A stretch of 30,456 nucleotides of DNA. Source: a virus. Positions within the stretch are counted from its first letter, which is position 1. The number at the start of each line of letters is the position of its first letter. The notes beneath the pieces were generated by a model. The model had not been told where the DNA came from. It searched no databases and worked only from the letters and a program-made list of their open reading frames with translations. Shown here piece by piece: positions 3,314 to 18,266 of the stretch. Location of the stretch: the IMG/VR virus record IMGVR_UViG_3300030102_000212, positions 1-30,456 of that record; one strand, written 5' to 3'. The translations under genes and the position numbers were made by a program.

Positions 3314-5163
3314 TGCCGTTGCGTAAGTTAACCCTACGCCCCGGTGTGAACAAAGAAGTTACACGTTATGTAGATGAAGAAGGTTGGGCCGACTGCGATA
3401 AAGTACGTTTCCGTGCTGGGTACCCCGAAAAGATAGGTGGGTGGCAGCAAATATCTGGTAATACGTTTCTTGGTATTGCACGTTCCCTATTTAATTGGGT
3501 TACGCTAGAAGGTCAAAACCTGCTTGGTGTCGGTACCAATCTCAAGTTTTATATAGAGAAGGGTGGACAATACTTTGATGTGACACCTGAACGCACGCCG
3601 TCTGGCGTGTCCCTTACCAACCCCTTTACAACCGTTTCTGGCTCTACCACCGTCACCGTTACAGATGCTAACGGAGGATATATAAACGGTGATTTCGTTA
3701 CGTTTAGTGGGGCATCTGCTGTAGGCGGGTTAACTCTAAATGGTGAGTTTCAGATAACGTACTCTACGGGCAACACATATACCATAGAATCAAGCAGTGC
3801 AGCCTCATCATCCGCTACTGGTGGGGGGTCTGTAACAGCAAAATACCAAATAAACGTAGGCCCAGAGTTTGTTGTACCTTTAGTTGGTTGGGGTGCTGGT
3901 GGGTGGAACGAAGGTACATGGGGTAACGGATCTACCTCTACGGATTCATTACGCTTGTTTAGCCAGTCTAATTTTGGTGAAGACTTGGTATTTGGCCCTC
4001 GTGGTAGCAGTATCTATTACTGGGATGCGTCTGGGGGGCTTGAGGTTCGCGCAGTAGAACTATCTTCTCTAGCAGGCGCATCCAACACACCTACAAAACA
4101 AAATTTTATACTTGTGTCCGATGTAAGTCGTTTTGTGTTTTGTTTTGGGGCTAATACGCTAGGCTCTGCGACACAAGATCCTATGCTTATCCGATGGTCA
4201 GACCAAGAAGATATTACCAACTGGACTCCCAGTGCTACTAACCAAGCGGGGGATCTACGTCTGTCCAAAGGCTCTGAAATAGTAGGCGCGTTGCAGTCTC
4301 GCCAAGAGGTGCTGGTATGGACAAATTCTGCGTTGTACGCCTTACAGTATCTAGGCGGTACGATTGTGTGGGGATCTCAGCTTCTTGCGGATAATATATC
4401 TATAGCTTCGCAGAATGCCGCTTCTTTCTCAGATGGGGTCACCTACTGGATGGGGCTTGATTCCTTCTATGTATACGATGGCACCGTTAAAAACCTACCG
4501 TGTGATCTAAAACGACATGTATTTAACGACATAAACCATGAACAGATAGGACAGGTGTTCGCTGGTACGAACGAAGGGTTTGACGAAGTTTGGTGGTTCT
4601 ACCCATCAGCTAGCTCAACCACTATAGACAAGTATGTAGTATACAATCATGCACAAGGTATTTGGTACTTCGGCAGTTTAGCTCGCTCTGCATGGCTTGA
4701 TACAGGAATTAGACAGTTCCCTGTTGCAGCTACATACAGTAACAACTTAGTCACACACGAAGACGGTGTAGACGATAACGAAAGTGGCACAAGAGCAGCC
4801 ATTACTGCGTTTATAACTTCTGGTGAGTTTGACATAGACGACGGTGACAGATTCTCGTTTATACGCCGAGTGCTGCCTGACCTGACGTTTGATGGATCTA
4901 CTGCGGACAGCCCTACAGCTACGCTAGAACTCCTACCACTACAGTCTTCAGGTTCGGGATATAGTAACCCTGCATCAGAGGGTGGGAGCAGTAGTAGATC
5001 TGTCGTAAGGTCTGCAACAGTACCCGTTGAGAAATACACTACACAGGTGAACATTCGCGTACGTGGCAGGCAGCTATCCATAAAGGTACAGTCAGCAGAT
5101 CTAGGCGTGCAGTGGCAGCTTGGGGCACCAAGGCTTGATATACGTCCTGACGGGAGGCGATAG
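3313..5163 (+). CDS. Virion structural protein, P22 stabilisation-protein-like
   Basis: A 616-residue protein, probably part of the short tail or head-tail connection. The N-terminus (PLRKLTLRPGVNKEVTRYVD, then DCDKVRFRAGYPEKIGGW) is a signature I associate with marine phage structural proteins related to packaged-DNA stabilisation/tail accessory proteins. The rest is rich in beta-strand, Gly, Ser and Thr with many Trp-containing strands (ITNWTP, GIWYFGSLARSAW), as expected for a beta-propeller-like or similar virion protein; residues about 95-165 form a Ser/Thr-rich insert. No enzyme motif seen. It follows lysozyme by one-base overlap and opens the virion gene run. The exact tail position is uncertain. 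Confidence 0.65.
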   Translation: MPLRKLTLRPGVNKEVTRYVDEEGWADCDKVRFRAGYPEKIGGWQQISGNTFLGIARSLFNWVTLEGQNLLGVGTNLKFYIEKGGQYFDVTPERTPSGVSLTNPFTTVSGSTTVTVTDANGGYINGDFVTFSGASAVGGLTLNGEFQITYSTGNTYTIESSSAASSSATGGGSVTAKYQINVGPEFVVPLVGWGAGGWNEGTWGNGSTSTDSLRLFSQSNFGEDLVFGPRGSSIYYWDASGGLEVRAVELSSLAGASNTPTKQNFILVSDVSRFVFCFGANTLGSATQDPMLIRWSDQEDITNWTPSATNQAGDLRLSKGSEIVGALQSRQEVLVWTNSALYALQYLGGTIVWGSQLLADNISIASQNAASFSDGVTYWMGLDSFYVYDGTVKNLPCDLKRHVFNDINHEQIGQVFAGTNEGFDEVWWFYPSASSTTIDKYVVYNHAQGIWYFGSLARSAWLDTGIRQFPVAATYSNNLVTHEDGVDDNESGTRAAITAFITSGEFDIDDGDRFSFIRRVLPDLTFDGSTADSPTATLELLPLQSSGSGYSNPASEGGSSSRSVVRSATVPVEKYTTQVNIRVRGRQLSIKVQSADLGVQWQLGAPRLDIRPDGRR

Positions 5164-5339
5164 TGACTACTTATAATTCTATAGCACCTCGACTACCGAC
5201 ACCTCCAAAAGAATACACGCAGGTGTCGTTTGAACAGTTTAATAACGTATTGCGTATATACTTTAACCAGCTAGACGAGAGCATAAAAGAAGCAGCCGTT
5301 TCTACTGAATCTCAAGCGCAGGTGTGGTTCCTTGGCTAA
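5163..5339 (+). CDS. 58-residue phage protein of unknown function, GTG start
   Basis: A short reading frame that fills the gap between two structural genes. GTG at 5163 overlaps the preceding TAG stop (TAGTG), and TAA lies at 5337-5339. The product begins TTYNSIAPRLPTPPKEY and continues with an amphipathic helix (NNVLRIYFNQLDESIKEA), a Pro-rich-then-helix pattern I associate with small proteins next to marine phage structural genes. Probably a minor virion or assembly component; function unknown. Its end overlaps the TTG start of the next gene by eight bases. Confidence 0.7.
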   Translation: MTTYNSIAPRLPTPPKEYTQVSFEQFNNVLRIYFNQLDESIKEAAVSTESQAQVWFLG

Positions 5340-5655
5340 TCAATACAAAAACGCAAAAGTAGATTTAACTACTACTAACGCAACTACGCTGTACACATGC
5401 CCAACAGCAAAGACTGCGATTGTTAAGTCTATACTCGTGTCAGAAGACTCAGGCAACGCGGACACTATAACGGTAACGCTTACCGATGCTGCCTCTGCGG
5501 TGTTCAGTGTGTTTAAGGTCAAGGCTGTTGGTGCTAATACCACAGTAGAGCTACTTACTGCGCCTATGGTGGTAGAGGAGTCGGAAATACTAAAAGTCAC
5601 CGCCGCAACCGCTAACAGGTTACACGTTGTAGCTAGCTTGCTGGAGGTTACGTAA
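5332..5655 (+). CDS. Small beta-rich virion protein, TTG start
   Basis: A 107-residue protein dominated by short Thr/Val strands (TTTNATTLYTCP, TAIVKSILVSED, DTITVTLTDAA, NRLHVVASLLEV), resembling small beta-sandwich structural proteins seen beside the tail genes of marine phages. The only plausible start is TTG at 5332 (first residues MANQYKNAKVDL), with AGGTG upstream; a rare start codon may lower expression. It overlaps the 58-residue gene before it, and its TAA overlaps the next ATG (TAATG). A capsid decoration, tail or fibre-associated role is possible, but the sequence does not decide. Confidence 0.65.
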   Translation: MANQYKNAKVDLTTTNATTLYTCPTAKTAIVKSILVSEDSGNADTITVTLTDAASAVFSVFKVKAVGANTTVELLTAPMVVEESEILKVTAATANRLHVVASLLEVT

Positions 5656-7877
5656 TGATAGGTATGGAGAGTGAAGATTTTAGCGGCATGGGTCTGGGGT
5701 CGTTTGATGCGTTTGCACCTACCTCAGCACAAATGCAGAGGCGACTGGGCACCGTTGGGGTACCGAGTTACACTCCTCCTAGACCTGCGAGTGTAGCGCC
5801 ATCTACGCGCATATCACCCACAACATCAAACCCTGCACCAGTAACAATGCCAACCAGCATGGGTCAGCCTAATACTACAGCCACAGCGCCTAAACCAGTA
5901 ACACAGCCAAAAAGGTCAACAGCATTACAGAAGCGGCTAGACGAGATTGAGGCAGAAGTAGCGCGTAAGCGCCAAGCAGAGATAGCTAAAGGGCCAAGGG
6001 TGGTCGATAATTTAAGAAATACGACGCCGAACATGACTGAGTTTAGAAAGGCGCTACGTACAGGCTATACGGGGGATAATGTTGACCGTGTAGACGATTT
6101 CTACAATATGACTTTCCTAGACGTAATGCACGACCCAGAAGGCGGCAATATATATCTTCCAGATGCTACGGACTTCGCAGAGAAGGGTGCAATGGGCATC
6201 CCACTGACCAAAGAAGAGCAGATGCTCAACATTTCCAGCAGGGCGTACTTTGGGCAGGATGGCCTGCCGGGGTATGAAACAACCCGTTTCTATGAACCTC
6301 CTTCAGAAAAAGACTATACGGATGCGCGTAAAGCCGAGGTAAGTGCGATAACTGGAACTATAGGAGATGCGACCAGTACAGGGCAGATAGTAGACACGTT
6401 ATCTAGTTACTACGGCGCTGATGTAAAGCCTATTAAAGAAACTAGGTCGTTTACGGGGGATATAGAGGGCTACACAAGCACTTCTCCAGAACTAATGGCA
6501 GAGTTTCAGTCGGTCATCAGACCGTTGATGGAAGAAAAAGTCGCGTACGGTATGAGTGTGGGTAAAAAGGACTACCACGAAACCATACTAGATGCCTACA
6601 ACAACGATCCCGTTATCCGTTCTGTATACGACAAGTACGGAGTAAAACCTACACGAACAAACGCAAGAGGGTCTGAGTACATATATGACCCATTGGGTTA
6701 CAGGGATTCCAGAGTAATTAAAAGAAGCCCTGCGCTCGGTAATGCTATAAAAATGGCAGCTACCCTAGCGTTTACCGCTGGTGCAGGTGGGGCATTAGCC
6801 GGTACGGCAGCATTTGGTGGAGGCACGTCCGCATTGGGTACAGCAGCGGCAAAAGGGCTAACATCTGCCGCTGTAACTGCCGCTACAGGTGGTGAGGGGA
6901 GTGACATTCTAAAGGCTGGGCTACTGGGCGGTGCAGGAGCTTACGGGCAAGAATTAGCTAAGGCCGCAGAAGCAGCAGACCTCGCCGCAGCCGCTGGCGC
7001 AATGACAGCCGAGTCTCCTCAACTTATAAAAGCTGCGGAACTAGCCAGAAAAACCTCGGATACCTTCAATAAAGTAGCCAAAACAGCCAAGTTTGTAGAT
7101 GCTGCTATAGACGGAGATATAGCTGGCGCTGCGGTTGCTGCGTTTGGCCCTAGATTCACCAAAACAGCAATGGACAAAGTTGGTTTAGACGAGAAGTTTT
7201 TAGACAGATACAACATAAACCAAGATGATGCTGTTGCAGGACTTGTTAAAACTCAGCTTGAACTAACAAAGGGCACCGATTTTGGCGATGCTGTAGCTAG
7301 AGGCTTTGGTAAATACATCACGGAAGGTGGAGCGTTAGCGCCTAATAACGTAAAAACACCTGAGTTTATCCAAATGATAGGTGACGCAATAAAGGCAACT
7401 GGGAGTATGTTTGACGACGTACTATTGCAGCCCATAAAGGGTGTTGTAGAGCCGGTAATAGATGTTGCAAGGGACATAGGTAGCGCAGCAGACGATGCGT
7501 TCATACAGCCTATTCGAGAAGGACTTAAAGTTGTAGACGACGAGGCAATACAGCCTATAAAGGAAGGGTTTGAAACAGTATATGAGTCGATACCAAATTT
7601 AGGTGTGGATTTATCAAATCTGCCAGATGTAAATTTACCTGCATCTACACAAACAGCATCAACATCGTCAACGCCATCAACAAGACGTTCAGCACCTCGT
7701 ATAATTCAAGAACGCACTGCGGATATAGTTGACCTTGGCGAAGAGCGATATAGGAAAGTAGACCCTGTGGCCGCATACCTAGCTAGCATTACAGGTAGTG
7801 GCATGGCAAACGGTGGTGCAGTCAGAAGTTCTTATGGTAATCTTGACGAGCTACTACGTATAGTTGAGGGCAAGTGA
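5655..7877 (+). CDS. Putative internal/ejection virion protein (740 residues)
   Basis: A 740-residue protein without an enzymatic motif. Residues 1-95 are Pro/Thr/Ser-rich and look disordered. A globular, charged middle follows, then a strikingly Ala/Gly-rich hydrophobic stretch (about 360-450, including TLAFTAGAGGALAGTAAFGG) that could insert into or cross membranes. Residues about 590-650 carry three related QPIK/QPIREG segments, and the C-terminus contains MANGGAV, a motif shared with neighbouring proteins. Hydrophobic glycine-zipper stretches in large phage proteins are typical of components ejected with the DNA. Structural or ejection function is inferred from this and from its place between structural genes. 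Confidence 0.6.
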   Translation: MIGMESEDFSGMGLGSFDAFAPTSAQMQRRLGTVGVPSYTPPRPASVAPSTRISPTTSNPAPVTMPTSMGQPNTTATAPKPVTQPKRSTALQKRLDEIEAEVARKRQAEIAKGPRVVDNLRNTTPNMTEFRKALRTGYTGDNVDRVDDFYNMTFLDVMHDPEGGNIYLPDATDFAEKGAMGIPLTKEEQMLNISSRAYFGQDGLPGYETTRFYEPPSEKDYTDARKAEVSAITGTIGDATSTGQIVDTLSSYYGADVKPIKETRSFTGDIEGYTSTSPELMAEFQSVIRPLMEEKVAYGMSVGKKDYHETILDAYNNDPVIRSVYDKYGVKPTRTNARGSEYIYDPLGYRDSRVIKRSPALGNAIKMAATLAFTAGAGGALAGTAAFGGGTSALGTAAAKGLTSAAVTAATGGEGSDILKAGLLGGAGAYGQELAKAAEAADLAAAAGAMTAESPQLIKAAELARKTSDTFNKVAKTAKFVDAAIDGDIAGAAVAAFGPRFTKTAMDKVGLDEKFLDRYNINQDDAVAGLVKTQLELTKGTDFGDAVARGFGKYITEGGALAPNNVKTPEFIQMIGDAIKATGSMFDDVLLQPIKGVVEPVIDVARDIGSAADDAFIQPIREGLKVVDDEAIQPIKEGFETVYESIPNLGVDLSNLPDVNLPASTQTASTSSTPSTRRSAPRIIQERTADIVDLGEERYRKVDPVAAYLASITGSGMANGGAVRSSYGNLDELLRIVEGK

Positions 7878-8779
7878 TGAGCTTTATTGATGACATTCTA
7901 AGGGTAGATAGTCCTGACTATAGTTTTGACACCAAAGCCTATATGGGCGACTTTGATCCGTTAGAAGACAACCTTGCTGACTTTTTTGGTGGCGGTGACC
8001 CTAAGTTTAACGATGATGGCTTCAGCGTAGATTTTCTTGACGCACTATACGGTAGAGGCGGGGATCTATCTGACTACTCTGACAGTTCCATCGACGACTT
8101 TTTTAGTTACCTTACTGATAGCGAAGACAAAGATAAACCTAGTGGTTTTAAGAAGTTACTAAGTCAGTTTTTCCCAGAAAGAAGAGGGTCTGGCGGTGCT
8201 GGTGGGTTACTTGAGTTGCTAGGCCCACTAGCTATATCTAGCTTCCTTAAAGATCGGGGCTTAACGTCACCTAAAATACCTAGTAATGCTTACGAAGGCA
8301 GCATTCCTGAGTATACCGCAGTACGAGAACAAGTTACAGGCAGAGACGATACAAGCCGTCGTCCCGGCAGTGGTGGTAGACGTTATTTCTCTGACACCAT
8401 ATACGCCAAGAAGCCTGAAGGTCAGCAGCCTATGTCTGTTGAAGAAGCTCAAGCTAAAGCTAGAGCACAAGCAGCAGGGTTTATGGGGGGCGGTCAAGTG
8501 CTCGAAGATGGGGGCTACCTGCAAGGCGTTTCTGATGGGCAAGCAGACCTAGTTCCCGCCGATATTGATGGCGTGCAAGAAGCACGATTAAGCCACGGTG
8601 AGTATGTGTTACCTGCCGATTTAGTAGCTATACTAGGTAACGGTAACTCCGATGCAGGTGCCGCAGCGTTGGACGATTTCATGTCCACAGTACGTAAGAA
8701 AGCTACAGGCACACCAAAACAACAGAAAAACATCGACGCAGATCAAGTGCTTGCGATGTTATCCAAGAGGATGTCGTAG
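7877..8779 (+). CDS. Virion-associated protein with GGGQV / GEYVLP motifs
   Basis: A 300-residue acidic protein. The N-terminal 90 residues are rich in Asp, Phe and Gly (several DDFF-like clusters). The middle is Gly/Pro/Ser-rich. The C-terminal third contains MGGGQVLEDGG and, about 35 residues on, ARLSHGEYVLPADLVAILGN, a motif combination widespread in marine phage virion and tape-measure-like proteins, whose biochemical meaning is unknown to me. ATG at 7877 (TGATG overlap) is preferred to the GTG one codon earlier. Co-located with other GG-x-V proteins, so probably an internal virion protein. Confidence 0.6.
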   Translation: MSFIDDILRVDSPDYSFDTKAYMGDFDPLEDNLADFFGGGDPKFNDDGFSVDFLDALYGRGGDLSDYSDSSIDDFFSYLTDSEDKDKPSGFKKLLSQFFPERRGSGGAGGLLELLGPLAISSFLKDRGLTSPKIPSNAYEGSIPEYTAVREQVTGRDDTSRRPGSGGRRYFSDTIYAKKPEGQQPMSVEEAQAKARAQAAGFMGGGQVLEDGGYLQGVSDGQADLVPADIDGVQEARLSHGEYVLPADLVAILGNGNSDAGAAALDDFMSTVRKKATGTPKQQKNIDADQVLAMLSKRMS

Positions 8780-8782
8780 ACC

Positions 8783-10018
8783 ATGAGCAACGGCGATACA
8801 GTAGGACAAGAATCGGGTATATCAGACGGACTAACTAAGTTCGCTGGCCCTTATGTCGCAGAAATGCTTGGTAAAGCACAAGCACTCGCTGATACACCTT
8901 ATCAAGCCTACACCGGCCCACTTACTGCTGGTGCTAGCGGTTTACAAGATCAGGCTTTTGCGGGTTACGCTGGTTTAGATCCCAGCCAACAAACTGGCAT
9001 AGGCTCTTTTGCTGGTGATATGACTGCCGGTGGTACGTTTGGTTTTGGTAGCGCAGCAGGACAAGGTTACGAAGCAGGGTTTACTCCCGGTTCTTATGAT
9101 CTGTCCGGTATGCAGCAAGGTACGTTCCAAAACACATACAACCCTACAGCTTTTACAGCGGGCGCTGCACAACAGTATATGAACCCCTATTTGCAAGCTG
9201 CATTAGAGCCACAACTACGTGAAGCCTCTAGGCAGTCAGAAATACAACGTATTGCAGACAGAGGTCGATTGTCTCGTGCAGGTGCTTTTGGCGGTTCACG
9301 TCAAGCTATTATGGAAGCAGAGAGTGGACGTAATTTAGGGCAGCAACTTGCCGATATAACTGGTAGAGGATACTCCGAAGCCTTTGGGCAAGCACAACAG
9401 CAGTTTAACACTGAACAACAGCGAGCTATGGCTAACCGCGATGCTCTCATGGCGCAGTTTAATGAAGAAGAGCGTATGCGCCAGCGTATCGCTGAAGTCG
9501 GCGTAGATCAGTTTAACAGGGAGCAAGAAGCACAACGTCAAGCAGAAGAAGCGCGACGTACCCAGTTTAATACTGAGGCTGACCGCCTATCTGCTTTTGA
9601 CGAACGCCGTAGACTACAGTCAAACGAAGAAGCTCGACGTGAAATAGAACGTCAAGAGCGAGAACGTGAGCAGTTTAACGAGCAAGAACGTCGTAGAATT
9701 GCGGCAGAAGAAGCTGACCGGCGCTACGGTTTAAGCGCACTACGTGATATGCGTGCTGCCGGACAAGAACAGCGTGATATTGAGCAAGAAGGCATCACTG
9801 CTGACTACTTACAGTACCAGCAAGAACAAAAGTATCCATACGAACAGCTACAGTTTATGCAATCTATGTTAGATGGGTTACCAATATCAACTTCGTCTAG
9901 GTCATTTGTAGAGCCGTCTTCTTTAGATGAATTGACTTCTGGGACGGGCGATGTCTTGGCATACCTTGCAAGATTATTGGGCGGCGGTAGTGGTGGCGGT
10001 GGCGGCGCTCCAACATAG
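8783..10018 (+). CDS. Virion protein with six-copy 18-residue helical repeat
   Basis: A 411-residue protein. Residues 1-130 are Gly/Ala/Tyr/Phe-rich with low complexity. A conserved-looking segment follows (MNPYLQAALEPQLREASRQ at 133-151, then GAFGGSRQAIMEAESGRNL at 167-185). Residues 207-314 form a long charged helix with QFN recurring at exactly 18-residue spacing (207, 225, 243, 261, 297, with QSN at 279). The C-terminus has YPYEQLQFMQSMLDGLP and a Gly-rich tail. A ribosome site with GAGGA precedes the ATG. Similar proteins occur in marine phages as uncharacterised structural proteins. A rod-like or bundled role in the virion or ejection channel is inferred. Confidence 0.65.
   Translation: MSNGDTVGQESGISDGLTKFAGPYVAEMLGKAQALADTPYQAYTGPLTAGASGLQDQAFAGYAGLDPSQQTGIGSFAGDMTAGGTFGFGSAAGQGYEAGFTPGSYDLSGMQQGTFQNTYNPTAFTAGAAQQYMNPYLQAALEPQLREASRQSEIQRIADRGRLSRAGAFGGSRQAIMEAESGRNLGQQLADITGRGYSEAFGQAQQQFNTEQQRAMANRDALMAQFNEEERMRQRIAEVGVDQFNREQEAQRQAEEARRTQFNTEADRLSAFDERRRLQSNEEARREIERQEREREQFNEQERRRIAAEEADRRYGLSALRDMRAAGQEQRDIEQEGITADYLQYQQEQKYPYEQLQFMQSMLDGLPISTSSRSFVEPSSLDELTSGTGDVLAYLARLLGGGSGGGGGAPT
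9401..9724 (+). repeat. 54-nt in-frame tandem repeat, six copies
   Basis: The triplets for Gln-Phe-Asn (CAGTTTAAC or CAGTTTAAT) start at 9401, 9455, 9509, 9563 and 9671; CAGTCAAAC starts at 9617, completing an exact 54-base register. Between the markers the sequence has diverged but stays rich in Glu, Arg, Gln and Ala codons, so this is an old, protein-level repeat. Eighteen residues equal five turns of an alpha helix, which places every QFN on the same face. Confidence 0.85.
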
Positions 10019-10029
10019 GTAGATAGTTA

Positions 10030-11820
10030 ATGTTAAATAATCCTCTTAGTCAGATTGAACGCACGAAAGACGCTTATATGGGTAGACCCCAAGAGCTACA
10101 AAAACGTGCCAACATGACCAAAGAACTGGTCGATTTGCTTGCCATGCAGCAACTCAAGAAAGACCTTGATGCAGTAAAGCGTAACCAAGCCATGCAAGCG
10201 CAAGGCACCCCTGCGACGATCAAAGAGCAAATGCAGCAGGGGCTTATGGGCGAGTACCGCCAACAAGCTGCCAAAGATATGGGCGTAGGCCCAAGCGAAA
10301 TGGATACTGTAAATCGTGCACGACAGGGTATGCCTCAAGGTGGCCCACGTATGCCACAAGGCGCTCCACAACAGATGCCACAGCAGGCACAAGGTGTTAT
10401 GAGCCAAGCACGCCCAGTGCAGTTAGCTGGCGGCGGTATTGTTGCGTTCGCTAATGGGTCAGAAAATGAAGGGCCGGTAGAAGTCACAGAAGACCAAATA
10501 CAAGCATTGCAACAAAGGCTCGGCAGGACTATAGATCGGAATAGAGCTATAGAGATGATTCGTAGCAACCCAGAGGGCAAGAGCGCCATTGAACGTCTTT
10601 TCTCAGCCCTTGGCCCCGAAGGTTTTACGCCGGAAAGAATCAAAAGAAGGCAAAGAAGCGAGATAGGTGAAGAGCCTAGCGCAGAGATAGATGACGGTGC
10701 AGAAGCAGGACTAGCGAGCACAGCGCAGCCAAACTTGTACCCACCAAAAGATGATTCTTTTGCTCCTACGAATGAAGAAGTAGCGGCACGTCGCGCAAAA
10801 GAAAAAGAAGCTATTATTGCTAGAGCGGTAGAAGAAAAACAAAGCGCAGAAGAAGCGCCACTTTCTGGGTTAGCTGCTATAACAAAAGCGCAGACCGACC
10901 TATTTACTAAAGATATGCCTGAGTTTAAGCCGCCAGCGCCTAGCGAGAAGCTACGCGGTGCTATAGACGAAGGTATAATGTCCCTTGATGACGCTCGTGC
11001 TGAAAGTACGAAACGAGAAGAACGTGCATTAGAGCTTATGGGTATGGGGCCAGATGGCCAGTCTCGTAAAGACTTTGAAGAACAGCTAGCTGGTTTAGCT
11101 GCACTACGAGACAAAAATGCAGAGACACAAAGACGTAGAGATCTCATTGAGTTCTTAGGCGCAGGTTTTAGTCAAGGCGCAGAAAAGTACGTAGAACAAG
11201 AAGATGCTCGCCGTGCCCGTGATGCGAAGTACCTTACTGACCGCAAAGCCATACAGAATACACGTATGGAACTACAGAAAGTTGCTGGACAAGAAGCAGT
11301 GGACTCATACGATAACGCCCTACAGTCCTACCTGACCACACGCAGTAACGCTGTAAGAGATCTATCTAACCTAGAAGGCCAAGATAGAGAAGACTACAGA
11401 GCGTCGTACAACGCGGGCATGAACAATAGACAGATGCAAGCGGACATACTTGCTTCTTTATCTGCTAACGAACAGAACGCGCTATCTAGGATCATATCGG
11501 GGCGTAACGCTGATGCAAACATACTTCAGGTGGCATTTGCCGGACTTGATAAACAACAAGCTGCTATAGAAAGTGCGAAGCTGACTGAGATACAACGAAT
11601 AGTGGGGCCAGAAATAGCACAAACAGTAGCACTCAACGGTACCTTGACCGACGAAGAGAATGCCGCATACGCTGCGGCACAGGTGAAAGTACAGCAGCAA
11701 TTTGCTGAAAGAGAAGCCGCGATAGCAACCCTACGTGAAGACGCACTAAAAAAAGTTAGCCAGTCAGTAACAGGAGAAGAAGTACGCGGTTCTTCTGATT
11801 TTGACAAGTATCAAGATTAA
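10030..11820 (+). CDS. Putative internal virion protein with GGGIVAFANG motif
   Basis: A 596-residue, largely helical and charged protein with no enzymatic signature. Residues 1-95 form a charged helix. Residues about 97-130 are a Met/Pro/Gln-rich low-complexity stretch (repeated MPQGG, MPQGA, MPQQ). QLAGGGIVAFANG follows at about 134-146, a motif frequent in marine phage virion proteins and related to motifs in the two upstream genes. From about 250 onward it is long coiled-coil-like helix. It ends three bases before the giant gene. Likely part of the internal or ejectosome set; function inferred from neighbours and composition. Confidence 0.6.
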   Translation: MLNNPLSQIERTKDAYMGRPQELQKRANMTKELVDLLAMQQLKKDLDAVKRNQAMQAQGTPATIKEQMQQGLMGEYRQQAAKDMGVGPSEMDTVNRARQGMPQGGPRMPQGAPQQMPQQAQGVMSQARPVQLAGGGIVAFANGSENEGPVEVTEDQIQALQQRLGRTIDRNRAIEMIRSNPEGKSAIERLFSALGPEGFTPERIKRRQRSEIGEEPSAEIDDGAEAGLASTAQPNLYPPKDDSFAPTNEEVAARRAKEKEAIIARAVEEKQSAEEAPLSGLAAITKAQTDLFTKDMPEFKPPAPSEKLRGAIDEGIMSLDDARAESTKREERALELMGMGPDGQSRKDFEEQLAGLAALRDKNAETQRRRDLIEFLGAGFSQGAEKYVEQEDARRARDAKYLTDRKAIQNTRMELQKVAGQEAVDSYDNALQSYLTTRSNAVRDLSNLEGQDREDYRASYNAGMNNRQMQADILASLSANEQNALSRIISGRNADANILQVAFAGLDKQQAAIESAKLTEIQRIVGPEIAQTVALNGTLTDEENAAYAAAQVKVQQQFAEREAAIATLREDALKKVSQSVTGEEVRGSSDFDKYQD

Positions 11821-11822
11821 TA

Positions 11823-14800
11823 ATGCCCACACTACAGCAAGCGCGTAGAGCTATAGCAAATGCAGAAGCGGCGGGGGATTTCGCAGCGGCTAACCGTATG
11901 CGCCAAGCTATTAAGGCGGCTGAAGCACCCACTGACTCCTATGACCAACGTGTAGCTCGCCGTGCTGAAGAGATAAGGCGACGAGCAAGGGATATACCTG
12001 TACCCGTATCTACACCCGAAGAAACCGGCATATTTGAGGACATCACCTCTGGATTCGGTGCAGGTGTTGTTGGTGTAGGTGAAATGGCTGCACTTGGTCT
12101 TGCTGCTCCCCTAGAAGAAGAAAGTGAGCTTGCTGCACGGGATAAGATACAGTCTATTGCCGAGTCTTTTCGTCCTGAAGGCGGTGATCCCGATTCTATC
12201 TCCTACAAACTAAGTTCTGCGCTTGGTTCTATTGCTGGCCTTGCTGCTGTTCCCGCTGCCGCAGCATTTACCCCTGTAGGCACTGCTGGTGCTTTGGGTC
12301 TGGGTGCGTTAGCCGCTGGCGCTGCCGGTACTGGTGAAGCAAGTGAGCGTGCCCGCGCTGCTGGTGCCACTGAAGAAGAACGTGGAGATGCGGCACTCCG
12401 TGGTACCTTTATTGGTCTACTTGACGTAGTGCCTATTGCACGGATATTACCTACCAGCAAGCTACCTGAACTTGCAAAACTTCTTGAGAAGATACCGCCA
12501 GAAAAGGTAGAGACTTTTGGCGAACGTATCGCAAGCGCAGGCATAACAGGCACCGCAGAAGGCGTGCAAGAAGCTGCATCCGCTTTCTTACAAAACCTCA
12601 ACGAGCGCGAATATAACGCCGCTGCCGAAGTGTTTGGTGCTTCAGACTTAGAGGAAGGTGCATTAGGTGCCGGTGCTGGTGCTATCTTGCAAGGCTTTGT
12701 TGATTTGTTTGCCCCACGTCGTGCGAAAGGGCCAGACCCTGTAACTCCGGTTCCTACTGAAAAAACGCCTGTAACAGAAGCAGATGTAGATGCAGAAGCA
12801 GAAGCTGCGGCTGAAGAGGTTACAGATGAGACGCTCGACGCTGATGCAACTTTAGACGACGCTCCAAGAACCCTCGCTGAAATACGCACTGAATTAGGGG
12901 AAGGACTACCTGTAGACGCGGACGGAGTATTAGATACCGACAATTTCACAGATGAACAAATAGCTACGTACGTGGCACGGGTTAAAAAACTCAGCCCAGA
13001 AGAGCTTGCCGTACTACGAGGTGACGAGACAACGGCGGTAACAGAAGACACTGGCGAAGCAGAACTCACCGAAGAACAAGTTGCCGCTAGAATAGAAGCT
13101 GGCGAAGAGCAGGGTGCGGTAACTACTGTAACTAAGGGTGGTGAGACAACTACAACAGTACAGCCCATAGAACAACTTAGAGGGAAGGTAGATGAACAAG
13201 GTGATACAGATACCGATGCCGAAGGAGAATCTGTCGCAGCAGGAGGTGGAACAGGCTTTGCAGTTGATCCATCAGGCTTGGATGACGCTACAGGAGGTAA
13301 AGATCCCGTGGCAGTTGCGGGCGCTGACGGAAGAACAGTGGACGATGTTGGAAGAGACACTGGAAGAGCTGATGTCGGAGAAAGAGGACAGCTTGTTGCA
13401 TTAGAAGAACTGGACACGCGACTTACGGAAGCAAAAGAAGGACTAAAGAAGGCAACAGACCAGACTCCTTCTAAGGCCAACATACGTTATGCGTTGAAGT
13501 TCGCAAACGATATAAGACCTGAAAATGAACGGGCCAGCAACGCTGAGTTAAAGGTAGAAACAGATGCAGAATTCAAGGCGCAGAATACACAATACAAAGC
13601 TAACGTAGCTGCTGCACAAGCGGAAGTAGATAGGCTCCAAGAAGAAAGGAGAAACATACTTACAGAGTTCGACTCTCCCGTACAAAAAGCAGAATCTAGT
13701 CTTATAGAAGCTAGAGGCACAGAGGCAGAACCAGAAGCAGTAGAAGGGTTTAACCGTGCGTACGAAGAAGTCTACGGTACCCCTGAAGAAGTTAGTAAGC
13801 GAGAGTTCATAGGCAGAAGCAACCAGACAAAGGCTGTGCCACTACCTGAACAAGACCAACAAGCCATACAGCAGTTCCTTACGCAGTACGATGCGCTATC
13901 TAAAACAGCTCAGCGTGATGCACCAACAGAAGTTAAGGCTGTAGCTGACTACTTGAAGCTAGGCGAAGCAACGGGTGACCCCGCCAAAGGACTTACGTTT
14001 GCCGCTTACGATGTATCTACTGGTGCAGATAAAGTACGGCAAGTCTCACGAAAAGACGCTAGAGAAGCTCCAGATACACCAATACCACTTGATGAAGCTG
14101 CTTTAACTGCGGGTATGGGGCGTAAAAAAGGGCAAGCGGTGCTTGATTGGGCTAACGCTAACCTATCACCTACCGCACAGGCCCGTATTGAAGAGACTGC
14201 ACAAGAAGCGCAAACAGCAGAGTTTGAGTTAGGTGTAGGGCAGCGAAGGAGAGAGGCCGCAAAGGATAGGGAACTGCTTGAGCGTGCACAGCGTAAAAAA
14301 GCAGCGAGTAAGCCGCTAACGAAAGAAGAGACGGCTAGACTTAAAAAGTTCAGGGCGTCTATAGCAACACCAAGCCCTCGCAAAGAAGTATTAGGTACAG
14401 CCAAAGGTGCGAAAGCAGAAGAGAAAGCTGCAACACTACTACCCGACATTAGGAAACGTGCGCGGGAGGGTGATGTAGCCGCCCAACAGGAGTTAGCGGC
14501 AAGAAAAGCTGATGAAGAAAAAGCACGCGAAGCCGAAACCTATTTGAAGATGGTGCTGCCCAAGAACGCTGCCCTGTCTACCACCCTGCCTATGCCTGAT
14601 ACCGCTACTGCGGCACTACGCAACGGCGATTTGAAGGGTGCACTGGAGGCTATCGCAGCAGATGCGCCTAACCCTGCGGTCAAGCGGTTCGCTAAGAAGT
14701 TAGCCGAGAACGTGGGTACCACCAAGGTATCGCTGGTAGAAGACCTACAGAACGAGGGTGGTGACTTCGCCTATGGCTTGTTTGACCCCAAGACCAACGC

Positions 14801-17800
14801 GATTAGCTTAGATGCAGTAGACGGTCTGAACGTGCATACATTAGTGCATGAGATGGGCCACGCTGGGGTTTCTGCAACACTGGCAGATGCCAAGAACCCA
14901 CTAACTATTCAGCTACAGAAAGTCTTTGATAACGTGAAAGACAAGCTGAAGTCGCATTACGGGTCACAGGACATACAGGAGTTTGCTTCTGAATACATGA
15001 GCAACCCTGAGTTCCGCTCTGAACTTGCCCTGCTGTCTACCCCCAAGGCACCGTCGGTGTTACGTAAAGTGTCTGACATCATCAACAAGATAGTCAGAAA
15101 GATTCTGGGCGTGCCACCCAAGAAGGGCAAAGAAGACAGCCTTAACGCCATAGACGAGCTGATCGAAACGATCATTGCACCTGCACCCGAGTCTCGCAAT
15201 GCCGGTCAGCTACTGATGGCATCCAAAGAAGGTAAGTTAGGTAAGTCAATTGATGCTTCCGCAAGAGCTGCTTCTCGTGCTGGCAGTAAGGTACCAAAAC
15301 AAGACTTCGTAGAGGCTGTAGATTTTATCAGCACGCTGCGAGACCAAGGCACGCGAGGTGTGCAGGGTATAGGTCTTGGGTTCCTTAATAACAGCGCATT
15401 CAACGACGTAGCGGATGTCATAAACATACCGTCGATAAAGAACTTTACGCGGGCGATTGAGGCATCAAACGGTGCAGTAGATACAGTAAACAAGAGACTA
15501 AACTCCACCACTGCGGATATAGAACGTAAGCTACAAGCGGCTAGGAAACAATTCCCAGACAGGGACATACCGACCATATTTAATGAGTTGACCACAGATT
15601 CCACTATGGATCGTGTAGACCCATCCAAACCTGAATCAGACTACAAAGGCAAGAAGAAAGCAGCGTGGAAAAGGCTAAACGCTGAGTACCAAAAACTTGG
15701 CCCCGATGGTCAGGCTGCTTACGTGCAGCTACGAGATACGTACAAAGATATACTAGAAGATCTGAAGAAGAGCTTAGAAGCTCGTATAGACAGCGTTGTT
15801 ACAGATAAGGCAGAAGCCACAAAGCTGAAAGATACGATAGTCAAACGGCTTTTAGATAAGAACATGGTAGATCCGTATTTTCCCTTGGCGCGGGAAGGTG
15901 ACTACTGGCTTAAATGGTTTGTTGTGCCAACTAATCCAGACGGCACAAAGGGACAGCCAGAAGAAGTCATAGAGGCGTACACCAGCCCTAGAGCTAGAGA
16001 CAGAGCGCAAGCATCCTTGCTGGCTATAGCAAACGGGGAAGCCGATCCCATAGAGGTGGAAGGCGCTACGTTTACTGTATCTGGTATAGAGCCATTCAAC
16101 GGCAACAAGAACATGAAGTTTGAAGGTGGTGCGCCCCCCACTGCTTTTGCCACTCAGATGGTAAACACGTTGAAGAACGCTAAGGTAGATTCAGATACTA
16201 TCAACAGTGTCGTGCAAGAGTTTGTATCTGCACTACCTGAATCTTCTTTCTTAAAAGCGTTCAAACAACGTGAAAACAAGTTTGGTGCTAAGGATGACGC
16301 GCTGTATGCCCTAAAAACAAAGGGCTATGGTATGGCTAGACGTGCGGCAAACATGAGGTCTGCGGAAAACATACGTAGTAGCTTAGAGCAAGTATATGTT
16401 GACATAGATAAAGCGCCCACAAGCCAAGTATCGAGCAACTTCAAAGACGCAATAACGTCTGAACTGGACGCTCGTAAAGAACTTACGATCAACCCGCCGG
16501 ATGATTTCTTCAACAACGCTGCCAAAGAACTTAACCGTATAGCATTCTTCGGCACGATGGGCTTTAACGCTGCGTCTACCATAGCAAACGGATTTCAGTT
16601 ACCTGCTGTGGTAATGCCACACCTACAAGGTAAAACAGACTTCAAGACAGCCGCTAGGTCTATGAACGCCGCACGTAGGATGTTCACCAGTAGTGCTATA
16701 GAACATAAAGTCATGCCGTACGGCGGCAGTGATGTGGTCACTAGCGATAAGAACCTTATAAATTCGTACACGCCATCCATTGATAACTACTACCTGCTTA
16801 ACAGAGACGGGGAGTTGCAGTTACGAGATGACCTGCCGGATCTGGACACGCCAAACTACTACCAAAACAAAACAAAAAGGCAGTTCCTAGAAGAACTTAT
16901 GCCTGTCGTACAGGAAGCAGAGAACCGGGGCTTTTTGACTCGCTCTCTATGGGCTGACCAGATGGGCGCAGATATGGCAAGTACGCCGCAAGGTAGCCTG
17001 CCTCGTAGGTTTTATGAAAACCTTACTAAGTGGAGCGCGTTGCCTTTTCACACAGTGGAGCGAGGCAATAGGCAGATGACGGTAGTTGCCTCCTACCTAA
17101 CCGAGATGTCGCGGTTAGAAAAGAACCCAGATAAAGCGAAAGGTGAAGACAAGCTATCCGATGCCGAGAAGAGGAAGCTAGCCACACAAGTTGCTATGCA
17201 AGATACGTCACAGTTGAACGGTGGCTCGGCACTTAATACAGCACCTAGATTCGCACAGGGTACGCCTGTGGGCCGTCTGGCTATGATGTTTAAGACCTAC
17301 GGCTTCACCATGTACTACAACCAGTTCAAGATGATGGCTTCTGCGTTAAAACAAGCGCGAGAGTATGGGCTGTCAGAAGAACAGGGTCGTATAGCCATGA
17401 AGCAGTTTGTAGCAAGTAACGGCACCATAGCAGCCATAGCTGGCGTACAGGGCATACCACTGGTGGGTATATTCCAAGGTCTTGCAGACTTGTTCTTGGA
17501 AGATGACGAGGAAGACGCTGATCTGCTATCTCGTAGGTACTTAGGCGATCCACTGTACCGTGGTGGTGTGCAGTACCTCACTAACTTCGCAGGGGCTGAA
17601 GTTGATATTGCAGCACGTATCGGTCTGTCTAACCTGATCCTCGGTAACAACCGGTATGACTTCAATAAGTCCGCTAAAGAAGAGTTCATAGACTTTATTG
17701 GTGGCCCCGCTCTAGGCTACGCATCAAGTATAGGTCGCGGTTATATTGACGTGATCAATGGCGAAACTAGACGTGGGGTAGAGTCCATGCTGCCGTCAGC

Positions 17801-18266
17801 GTTCCGAAATATGCTTCAAGCAGAACGGTTTGCTACTGAAGGTGCTCAGACACGTCGTGGCGACCCGATCACAGATGACTTCAACGCGGGTGAGGTAGCA
17901 ACTAAGTTCTTCGGTTTTGCCCCTGCAAGCTACACCAACGCGCAAGAACGTAACCAAGACACCAAGAAGATTCAAAAAGCTGTATCTAGGCAGAAGAGCA
18001 GGCTGCTGAAACAATACTACATAGCGTTGCGTCAAGGTGACGATGTTTCTGAAATAGTAGACGAGATAATAGAACACAACAGAAAACATGCCCGTAAAGG
18101 TAAAGCGGCGGTTATAACCCCCGATACGATCAAACGATCAATGAAACAACACGCTAGAACTTCTTTGACCATGCACAACGGTGTGACGCTGTCCCCAACC
18201 ATGCGTTTGTACGCACAAGATATGCAGAATGAGCTGGAATATCAGCCGTGGTATATGAACGACTAA
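11823..18266 (+). CDS. Giant polyvalent/ejection protein with zinc metallopeptidase motif
   Basis: A 2147-residue protein, a fifth of the window. Residues 1-60 form a charged helix. About 72-95, 130-176 and 245-299 are Ala/Gly-rich hydrophobic segments. About 300-500 is acidic low complexity (Glu, Asp, Thr, Ala). About 500-950 is helical. At 1009-1013 lies HEMGH in VHTLVHEMGHAGV, a gluzincin-type zinc site, with E1053 or E1057 in QEFASEYMS as a possible third ligand. The C-terminal 600 residues hold hydrophobic helices (near 1575-1603 and 1866-1898) and a terminal region resembling those of large polyvalent phage proteins. Such proteins travel in the capsid and enter the host with the DNA, like T7 gp16, which instead carries a transglycosylase. 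The peptidase could open the cell envelope or process proteins; this is inferred. Confidence 0.7.
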   Translation: MPTLQQARRAIANAEAAGDFAAANRMRQAIKAAEAPTDSYDQRVARRAEEIRRRARDIPVPVSTPEETGIFEDITSGFGAGVVGVGEMAALGLAAPLEEESELAARDKIQSIAESFRPEGGDPDSISYKLSSALGSIAGLAAVPAAAAFTPVGTAGALGLGALAAGAAGTGEASERARAAGATEEERGDAALRGTFIGLLDVVPIARILPTSKLPELAKLLEKIPPEKVETFGERIASAGITGTAEGVQEAASAFLQNLNEREYNAAAEVFGASDLEEGALGAGAGAILQGFVDLFAPRRAKGPDPVTPVPTEKTPVTEADVDAEAEAAAEEVTDETLDADATLDDAPRTLAEIRTELGEGLPVDADGVLDTDNFTDEQIATYVARVKKLSPEELAVLRGDETTAVTEDTGEAELTEEQVAARIEAGEEQGAVTTVTKGGETTTTVQPIEQLRGKVDEQGDTDTDAEGESVAAGGGTGFAVDPSGLDDATGGKDPVAVAGADGRTVDDVGRDTGRADVGERGQLVALEELDTRLTEAKEGLKKATDQTPSKANIRYALKFANDIRPENERASNAELKVETDAEFKAQNTQYKANVAAAQAEVDRLQEERRNILTEFDSPVQKAESSLIEARGTEAEPEAVEGFNRAYEEVYGTPEEVSKREFIGRSNQTKAVPLPEQDQQAIQQFLTQYDALSKTAQRDAPTEVKAVADYLKLGEATGDPAKGLTFAAYDVSTGADKVRQVSRKDAREAPDTPIPLDEAALTAGMGRKKGQAVLDWANANLSPTAQARIEETAQEAQTAEFELGVGQRRREAAKDRELLERAQRKKAASKPLTKEETARLKKFRASIATPSPRKEVLGTAKGAKAEEKAATLLPDIRKRAREGDVAAQQELAARKADEEKAREAETYLKMVLPKNAALSTTLPMPDTATAALRNGDLKGALEAIAADAPNPAVKRFAKKLAENVGTTKVSLVEDLQNEGGDFAYGLFDPKTNAISLDAVDGLNVHTLVHEMGHAGVSATLADAKNPLTIQLQKVFDNVKDKLKSHYGSQDIQEFASEYMSNPEFRSELALLSTPKAPSVLRKVSDIINKIVRKILGVPPKKGKEDSLNAIDELIETIIAPAPESRNAGQLLMASKEGKLGKSIDASARAASRAGSKVPKQDFVEAVDFISTLRDQGTRGVQGIGLGFLNNSAFNDVADVINIPSIKNFTRAIEASNGAVDTVNKRLNSTTADIERKLQAARKQFPDRDIPTIFNELTTDSTMDRVDPSKPESDYKGKKKAAWKRLNAEYQKLGPDGQAAYVQLRDTYKDILEDLKKSLEARIDSVVTDKAEATKLKDTIVKRLLDKNMVDPYFPLAREGDYWLKWFVVPTNPDGTKGQPEEVIEAYTSPRARDRAQASLLAIANGEADPIEVEGATFTVSGIEPFNGNKNMKFEGGAPPTAFATQMVNTLKNAKVDSDTINSVVQEFVSALPESSFLKAFKQRENKFGAKDDALYALKTKGYGMARRAANMRSAENIRSSLEQVYVDIDKAPTSQVSSNFKDAITSELDARKELTINPPDDFFNNAAKELNRIAFFGTMGFNAASTIANGFQLPAVVMPHLQGKTDFKTAARSMNAARRMFTSSAIEHKVMPYGGSDVVTSDKNLINSYTPSIDNYYLLNRDGELQLRDDLPDLDTPNYYQNKTKRQFLEELMPVVQEAENRGFLTRSLWADQMGADMASTPQGSLPRRFYENLTKWSALPFHTVERGNRQMTVVASYLTEMSRLEKNPDKAKGEDKLSDAEKRKLATQVAMQDTSQLNGGSALNTAPRFAQGTPVGRLAMMFKTYGFTMYYNQFKMMASALKQAREYGLSEEQGRIAMKQFVASNGTIAAIAGVQGIPLVGIFQGLADLFLEDDEEDADLLSRRYLGDPLYRGGVQYLTNFAGAEVDIAARIGLSNLILGNNRYDFNKSAKEEFIDFIGGPALGYASSIGRGYIDVINGETRRGVESMLPSAFRNMLQAERFATEGAQTRRGDPITDDFNAGEVATKFFGFAPASYTNAQERNQDTKKIQKAVSRQKSRLLKQYYIALRQGDDVSEIVDEIIEHNRKHARKGKAAVITPDTIKRSMKQHARTSLTMHNGVTLSPTMRLYAQDMQNELEYQPWYMND

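Follow-up and report, generated by a model that had tools for sequence, protein, structure and literature searches.

The closest described systems are cited here from the accessible portions of the respective papers. In its ejected state, gp14 of T7 consists of two antiparallel helices with a short loop and is present in six copies in the extended channel (PMC11784390); T7-type gp14 proteins mostly have four or five predicted transmembrane helices (PMC8954989), and gp73 of DEV is a nonameric channel (PMC10925440). The pilot protein H of phiX174 forms a decameric tube of 170 A, which lines the DNA channel mostly with Gln, Asn and Arg, and its helix is made of turn-commensurate repeats, 11/3 and 7/2 (PMC7354561). 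Tape measure proteins show Phe/Trp marks at 11 residues and in a mixed 11-11-18 order (PMC3271669), and the coiled-coil linkers of sensor histidine kinases occur in discrete helix lengths governed by helical register, with heptad steps at 3.5 residues per turn (PMC6798134). Both quantised helix lengths (in the kinase linkers) and aromatic marks (in the tape measure proteins) are already known.

The window analysed here, 30,456 nucleotides of the IMG/VR record IMGVR_UViG_3300030102_000212 (positions 1 to 30,456), belongs to a virus genome of 58.6 kb, which encodes a terminase, a portal, a capsid protein and a protein resembling a tail spike. Judging from its relatives and gene content, this phage probably is short-tailed. 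The protein of interest is encoded by the first of three consecutive genes:

8783 to 10018, plus strand: probable DNA-ejection protein carrying the marks, 411 aa (open reading frame; phrog_4287 match, stronger in relatives)
10030 to 11820, plus strand: next gene, 596 aa, in the position of a second ejection protein (open reading frame, gene order)
11823 to 18266, plus strand: giant protein, 2147 aa, with LPD39, in the position of the large ejection protein (open reading frame, Pfam)

The order of 411, 596 and 2147 aa, the last being the largest, is that of P22 (7/20/16) and of T7 (14/15/16), so the window protein takes the place of P22 gp7 and T7 gp14. Its own match to phrog_4287 is weak (E=9.7e-4, 19.4 bits, residues 25-299); the family is named 'DNA ejection protein', a name given by annotation and not a tested function. 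In relatives the match is stronger: 15 of the 34 sequences of alignment A1 at E<=0.01 (best 2.1e-9), and nine of ten further relatives (L059 being the one with no match), among them all six named phages scanned, from 4.6e-5 to 2.1e-40, the best in Ochrobactrum phage OH. Chlorobiaceae phage CV-1-33 has its family gene downstream of genes annotated as P22-type portal and coat, with an SLT protein two genes on. The window protein thus probably is the first of three ejection-type proteins, a function which we infer from sequence matches and gene order. No phage record was hit by the window protein itself in tblastn, phage homologues being reached only through relatives, and the 47 pattern stretches found with the relative L071 in bacterial genomes were none of them confirmed, leaving no sign of a prophage by that query.

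The models of the family are helical hairpins, comparable to the two antiparallel helices of T7 gp14 but with one arm far longer and variable. Unlike T7-type gp14, the window protein contains no membrane-like segment by a rough test (best 19-residue Kyte-Doolittle mean 0.79). Comparison of the family with P22 gp7, gp20 and gp16 and T7 gp14 by hhalign revealed no homology above chance (probability at most 0.7% for gp14 and gp7), and P22 gp7 is assigned to another family, phrog_598. The likeness to DEV gp73 would be one of analogues only.

The 596-aa product of the next gene matched no PHROG or Pfam family at E<=0.1. In 29 of 196 homologues (for example L074, L240 and L191) the open reading frame of the family runs on for at least 290 aa, and by eye this extension looks like the protein that the window encodes in its separate next gene (GGGIVAFA-type motif), which suggests that the two are fused there. 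A protein of MW202675 (L084:8938-12495), annotated as internal virion protein D, combines the family domain with a lytic transglycosylase in a single open reading frame, which speaks for a role in ejection; it also shows an S74-like motif by eye and a match to phrog_6121. In gp40 of Ochrobactrum phage OH (L088:11899-13038, annotated tail fiber domain protein) a Peptidase_S74 chaperone domain stands at the C-terminal side (308-361, E=9.8e-10).

Some further observations were made in these genomes. The 2147-aa LPD39 protein has distant matches to very large phage proteins. The 301-aa protein upstream of the window protein (7874-8779) ends in a C-terminal SHGEYVLPADLVAILGNGNSDAGA stretch and has no PHROG or Pfam match at E<=0.1, and positions 489-1202 encode a 2OG-Fe(II) oxygenase. 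In a relative, the portal gene passes into a long Gln/Ala-rich stretch, helical-looking by eye (L082:13700-14044), perhaps a portal barrel that ejection proteins could adjoin. Another carries a phage-borne GroES-like co-chaperonin (L083:189-563) and a protein of a family labelled ferredoxin (L083:4944-5624).

The initial annotation had reported six marks at exact 18-residue steps in the window protein, and the translation of the open reading frame (8783-10018, plus strand, 411 aa) confirms them: QFN lies at residues 207, 225, 243, 261 and 297 (window coordinates 9401, 9455, 9509, 9563 and 9671) and QSN at residue 279 (9617), every step being exactly 18 residues.

9401 to 9724, plus strand: six 18-residue units with QFN or QSN at the start of each (sequence, comparison within the QFN clade)

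Scored for a common step, the six marks agree in 17 of 18 letters, against 9 in the best of 300 composition-preserving shuffles (steps 5-40). Self-identity of residues 186-340 reaches its maximum, 0.277, at lag 18 (lags 1-59; most others about 0.1), with secondary peaks at lags 27, 36, 45 and 54, and the grid extends past the marks, residues 315 (YGL) and 351 (YPY) standing in the same register. A recent DNA repeat behind the marks was considered and is ruled out by the pairwise identity of the six 54-nt units, 37-54%, together with the absence of any Tandem Repeats Finder call at these units in the window. Since the units are so far diverged in DNA, we take the repeat to be old and kept at the level of the protein.

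When homologues were aligned and their repeats counted, as the initial annotation had proposed, 21 distinct sequences, the window protein included, formed a QFN clade, in which neither irregular spacing nor indels between marks were seen and every step is exactly 18. Membership was defined by all Q[FSA]N steps being 18, which fixes Q1 and N3 of the units by construction; beyond these, the 45 distinct units have F at position 2 in 37, E at position 5 in 41 and R at position 17 in 38 cases. A looser listing (Q[FSAL]N) returned 24 sequences with at least two marks, the three additional ones (L025, L027 and L078, from other clades) being spaced differently. Complete sequences of the clade contain 2, 4, 5, 6 or 8 units, two that run off their contigs show 2 and 3, and the nearest relatives (L023 and L055, for example) have one mark only. 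The relative with 8 units, L012, bears a recent 108-nt duplication, 88.9% identical. Because the number of units varies from 2 to 8 (1 in relatives) among close homologues, helix length is not conserved, contrary to the proposed selection for a rigid helix of fixed length; what is conserved across whole turns, as read from the sequences, is the helical phase.

The predicted architecture of the window protein is as follows:

8783 to 9172, plus strand: N-terminal part, residues 1-130 (AlphaFold2, homologue lengths)
9182 to 9277, plus strand: first arm of the predicted helical hairpin, residues 134-165 (AlphaFold2)
9266 to 9373, plus strand: upstream anchor block, residues 162-197, AGAFGGSRQAI...GY (conserved block)
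9293 to 9874, plus strand: predicted single continuous helix, residues 171-364 (AlphaFold2)
9809 to 9883, plus strand: downstream anchor block at the end of the long helix, residues 343-367, YPYEQLQFM..MLDGLP (conserved block, AlphaFold2)

The AlphaFold2 model, computed as a monomer from 34 family sequences, places a helix at residues 134-165, a short turn at the conserved AGAFGG and then an unbroken helix over residues 171-364, about 29 nm long at 0.15 nm per residue; the upstream anchor block covers the hairpin turn and the start of this helix. Overall confidence is low (mean pLDDT 59, pTM 0.26), the N-terminal third being worst: residues 1-130 form one short helix followed by a low-confidence spacer (ten-residue pLDDT means 33-54). 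Along the long helix the ten-residue means are 70-92 over residues 201-310, 66 over 311-320 and 44-69 towards both ends. The continuous helix which had been postulated across the marks is therefore borne out by this monomer model, at its low overall confidence, and no break within the repeat was seen. A short relative, modelled as a monomer from 75 sequences, follows the same plan with a helix of 104 residues (116-219; pLDDT 76, pTM 0.41), and in both models the long helix follows a hairpin turn at the conserved GG. The PDB gave no sequence match to the two family alignments (A1 and A2) and, in a fold search with the model of the short relative, nothing below E 0.56; the best VIA-align Z, 8.0, is within a range described by the tool itself as common among helical bundles. 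In BFVD there were 21 matches at E<=0.001, and among the matches listed none is named for an ejection function.

Helix length was measured in the family as the distance between the two ungapped conserved blocks (residues 162-197 and 343-367 of the window protein). In a first, pattern-based version 62 distinct sequences gave 18 lengths with a best period of 3.62 residues (R=0.907), a value reached by none of 20,000 random sets. The profile-based version started from 294 loci (297 minus three of the window's own record), 285 of which have the upstream anchor; it is lacking in L021, L283, L294 and the six named phages. Of the 285, nine more drop out for want of the downstream anchor, and the remaining 276 represent 196 distinct sequences. 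These show 32 lengths between 80 and 460 residues, all at most 0.15 turn off one lattice, with a best period of 3.619 (R=0.905; scan 2.05-12; bootstrap 3.6145-3.6215). Jittering the length sets by up to 4 residues (1500 sets) gave an R of at most 0.628. At the heptad period of 3.5 the lengths reach only R=0.126, against 0.904 at 3.62. The same proteins provide two controls: the N-terminal spacer has 51 distinct lengths with R=0.025 at 3.62, and the C-terminal tail, taken up to 150 residues with longer tails excluded, 42 lengths with R=0.085. Unlike the helix, the spacer is disordered and free in length, and in L009 it contains an exact 19-residue duplication (within 5001-5560). Anchors were placed by hand in the six named phages, which lie outside the set of 196; five of them fit the lattice, the off-lattice one being gp40 of Ochrobactrum phage OH, which lacks the Y-P. 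Nearly all prolines of the segment (243 of 252) occupy one of two fixed positions, which lie 13 and 28 residues before its C end.

On a rough tree of 226 sequences, built from 107 columns of the flanking blocks, 52 of the 54 inferred length changes of up to 44 residues are whole turns (chance 30%), compared with 20 of 69 changes in the N-terminal spacer on the same tree; with the long changes included, 75 of 85 are whole turns. The commonest steps are 7 residues (15 of the 85), 18 (11) and 11 (7), and in the long relatives a unit of 29 residues, 8 turns, can be recognised by eye. An earlier tree of 194 sequences had given 61 whole-turn changes out of 63 (97%). Local whole-turn steps in helix length are well supported by these sequence comparisons.

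The single lattice fared less well in a prediction set before two further scans, namely that new lengths would fall on it. Of the 89 loci in these scans, 36 gave distinct sequences not met before, 33 repeated known ones, 13 were duplicates and 5 + 2 had no anchor. Only three of nine new length values (167, 174 and 218) fit the lattice, no better than chance (p=0.54); the others, 168, 229, 230, 233, 262 and 263, belong to nine of the 36 new sequences, eight from the scan with L240 and one from the scan with L138 (L323, L334, L338, L359, L363, L367, L382, L307 and L372). Several of these off-lattice relatives carry LANQ/GLTTGQ repeats. Among the six lengths with at least two LANQ motifs, 196, 218, 229 and 262 are equal modulo 11, and 233 and 263 are not. 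An 11-residue step corresponds to three turns at 3.667 residues per turn, and there is some indication in these sequences that part of the LANQ-type clade steps by 11 residues, a reading made after the prediction had failed. Pooling old and new data, 223 of 232 sequences and 35 of 41 length values lie on the lattice; the best period is 3.6195, and R falls to 0.704. As judged from the sequences, a single global lattice of 3.62 holds for most of the family, not for all of it.

The composition of the long helices follows the same period. Over 21 length classes, Phe/Tyr, Ala, Gly, Gln and charged residues each have their maximum at 3.620-3.625 residues per turn (scan 3.2-4.2); no peak at 3.62 is seen for the FYLMIVW residues as a group or for Arg by itself. 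The power of Phe/Tyr is 0.58 at 3.5 and 4.17 at 3.62, and neither in the lengths nor in Phe/Tyr does the family show the 3.5-residue periodicity of a heptad coiled coil. In 17 sequences of the QFN clade the sidedness of Phe/Tyr (R=0.61, shuffle maximum 0.20) and of Asn (R=0.69, shuffle maximum 0.22) is strong, which is to be expected from repeats of exactly 18 residues; the earlier claim that the marks form a repeating face of the helix holds for Phe/Tyr in these sequences. Glu and Arg have no preferred side there. Wheel analysis was also applied to the idea of a Gln-lined lumen, which was rejected: Phe/Tyr, Gln, Ala and others are sided, but Arg and Glu are not in the QFN clade and the sides differ between clades, and for these reasons we claim no lumen face. 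Stripes of less and of more than approximately 3.6 residues go with left-handed and right-handed supercoils, respectively, according to the accessible part of PMC6798134. The 3.62 stripe runs almost parallel to the helix axis, and since this lattice is close to the pitch of the helix itself, the sequences suggest long arms packed nearly straight and hardly supercoiled.

Compared with the systems described above, the family resembles phiX174 H, a protein of an unrelated virus, by the analogy of a long helix of turn-commensurate repeats, although the repeat of the QFN clade is 18/5 and its Arg and Glu have no face. With the tape measure proteins (as far as presented in the accessible part of PMC3271669) it shares aromatic marks at fixed steps and, in the QFN clade, a variable number of units, but matches no tape-measure family. 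The histidine kinase linkers (PMC6798134, likewise in part) differ in their heptad steps, the steps here being 7, 11, 18 and 25 on a lattice of 3.62 with a range of more than 100 turns.

What could hold the phase of a helix the length of which is free? A tape-measure-like ruler, in which the length of the helix sets a dimension and the 18-residue Phe steps are the marks of the tape, agrees with the exact units and their variable number in the QFN clade and with the marks known from PMC3271669. Against it, the number of units varies among close relatives, and the next gene nevertheless keeps to 575-614 aa in the 15 of 19 listed QFN members in which it is complete (1-6 units; L012 with its 8 units being unmeasurable). 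Nor did the window protein or the scanned relatives match a tape-measure family. Tested in its strict form, over 149 complete pairs uncorrected for kinship, helix length against the next gene gave a Spearman coefficient of -0.26 (p=0.0013), weak and of the wrong sign, and this form was rejected. We regard a ruler as very unlikely; of the initial annotation's placement in an ejection apparatus, the setting stands as probable on account of phrog_4287 and gene order, and the strict ruler falls. Alternatively, the arms could form a parallel trimeric coiled-coil stalk that serves as fibre or needle and not in ejection, assembled with the help of a C-terminal S74 chaperone domain in some members. 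Intramolecular-chaperone (S74) domains act on trimers; gp40 of phage OH has one, and in BFVD two of the 21 matches (E<=0.001) bear the name of such a domain. The window protein, however, has no S74 match at E<=0.1, a left-handed trimer should have a 3.5-residue stripe, of which there is none (R=0.126), and the relative from MW202675 has its transglycosylase domain in the same open reading frame, as ejected proteins can have. We consider a stalk unlikely.

The quantised lengths might also arise without any selection on phase, if unequal recombination between in-register repeats gained and lost whole units. The recent duplication in L012 and the clear repeat units of some clades are what this process would leave behind. 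Yet 7-residue changes are the most frequent, and at lag 7 the self-similarity of the length classes 91-123 (0.10-0.18) does not stand out from that at other lags; the units of the window have diverged far in DNA, and the family uses several different step sizes, all of them whole turns. Recombination as the sole cause therefore appears quite unlikely. The reading which we favour, and hold to be somewhat more probable than its negation, is that of a helical-hairpin subunit of the DNA-ejection apparatus, the long arm of which changes length only in phase; the ejection function, the oligomer and the role in a channel are inferred parts of it. The protein would fold into a hairpin of helices, one arm of which is very long and capped by the two conserved blocks, and several copies would probably pack side by side as part of the apparatus, so that each helix keeps every face turned to one and the same neighbour, or to the channel or DNA path, along its full length and at both ends. 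Insertions would then be tolerated only as whole turns, of 7, 11, 18, 25 or 29 residues: the clade of the window would use an 18-residue, 5-turn QFN cassette, the long relatives one of 29 residues and 8 turns, and another clade one of 11. Free length and locked phase would go together because whole-turn cassettes lengthen the helix without loss of fit. Against this reading speak the failed prediction of new lengths and the largest member, whose helix of about 71 nm would be hard to fit straight into a phage head. The earlier suggestion of a helix wrapping around DNA found no support.

A more speculative step, which we put forward tentatively and with considerable doubt, would have the arms wall in a conduit for the DNA, alpha-helical, straight and with hardly any supercoiling, assembled from interchangeable whole-turn cassettes of 18, 29 or 11 residues, which phages would be free to add or remove. 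If true, the wall of the conduit would be a modular, phase-locked channel of no fixed length, along which the stripes stay on their own faces; no such channel was met in the accessible parts of the ejection-protein papers. Similarly, the literature searched, which mostly lacked subscription journals, yielded no description of a phage ejection protein that varies in length by whole turns.

Ejection proteins show little conservation and are difficult to investigate. A rule visible in the sequence alone, whole-turn changes between two fixed caps, would provide a structural constraint on such a protein and points to a nearly straight helical assembly. It also makes a prediction for the bench, namely that inserts in phase should be tolerated and those out of phase should not. 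In this probable virion protein, length drifts from 80 to 460 residues between the anchors and the geometry stays locked.
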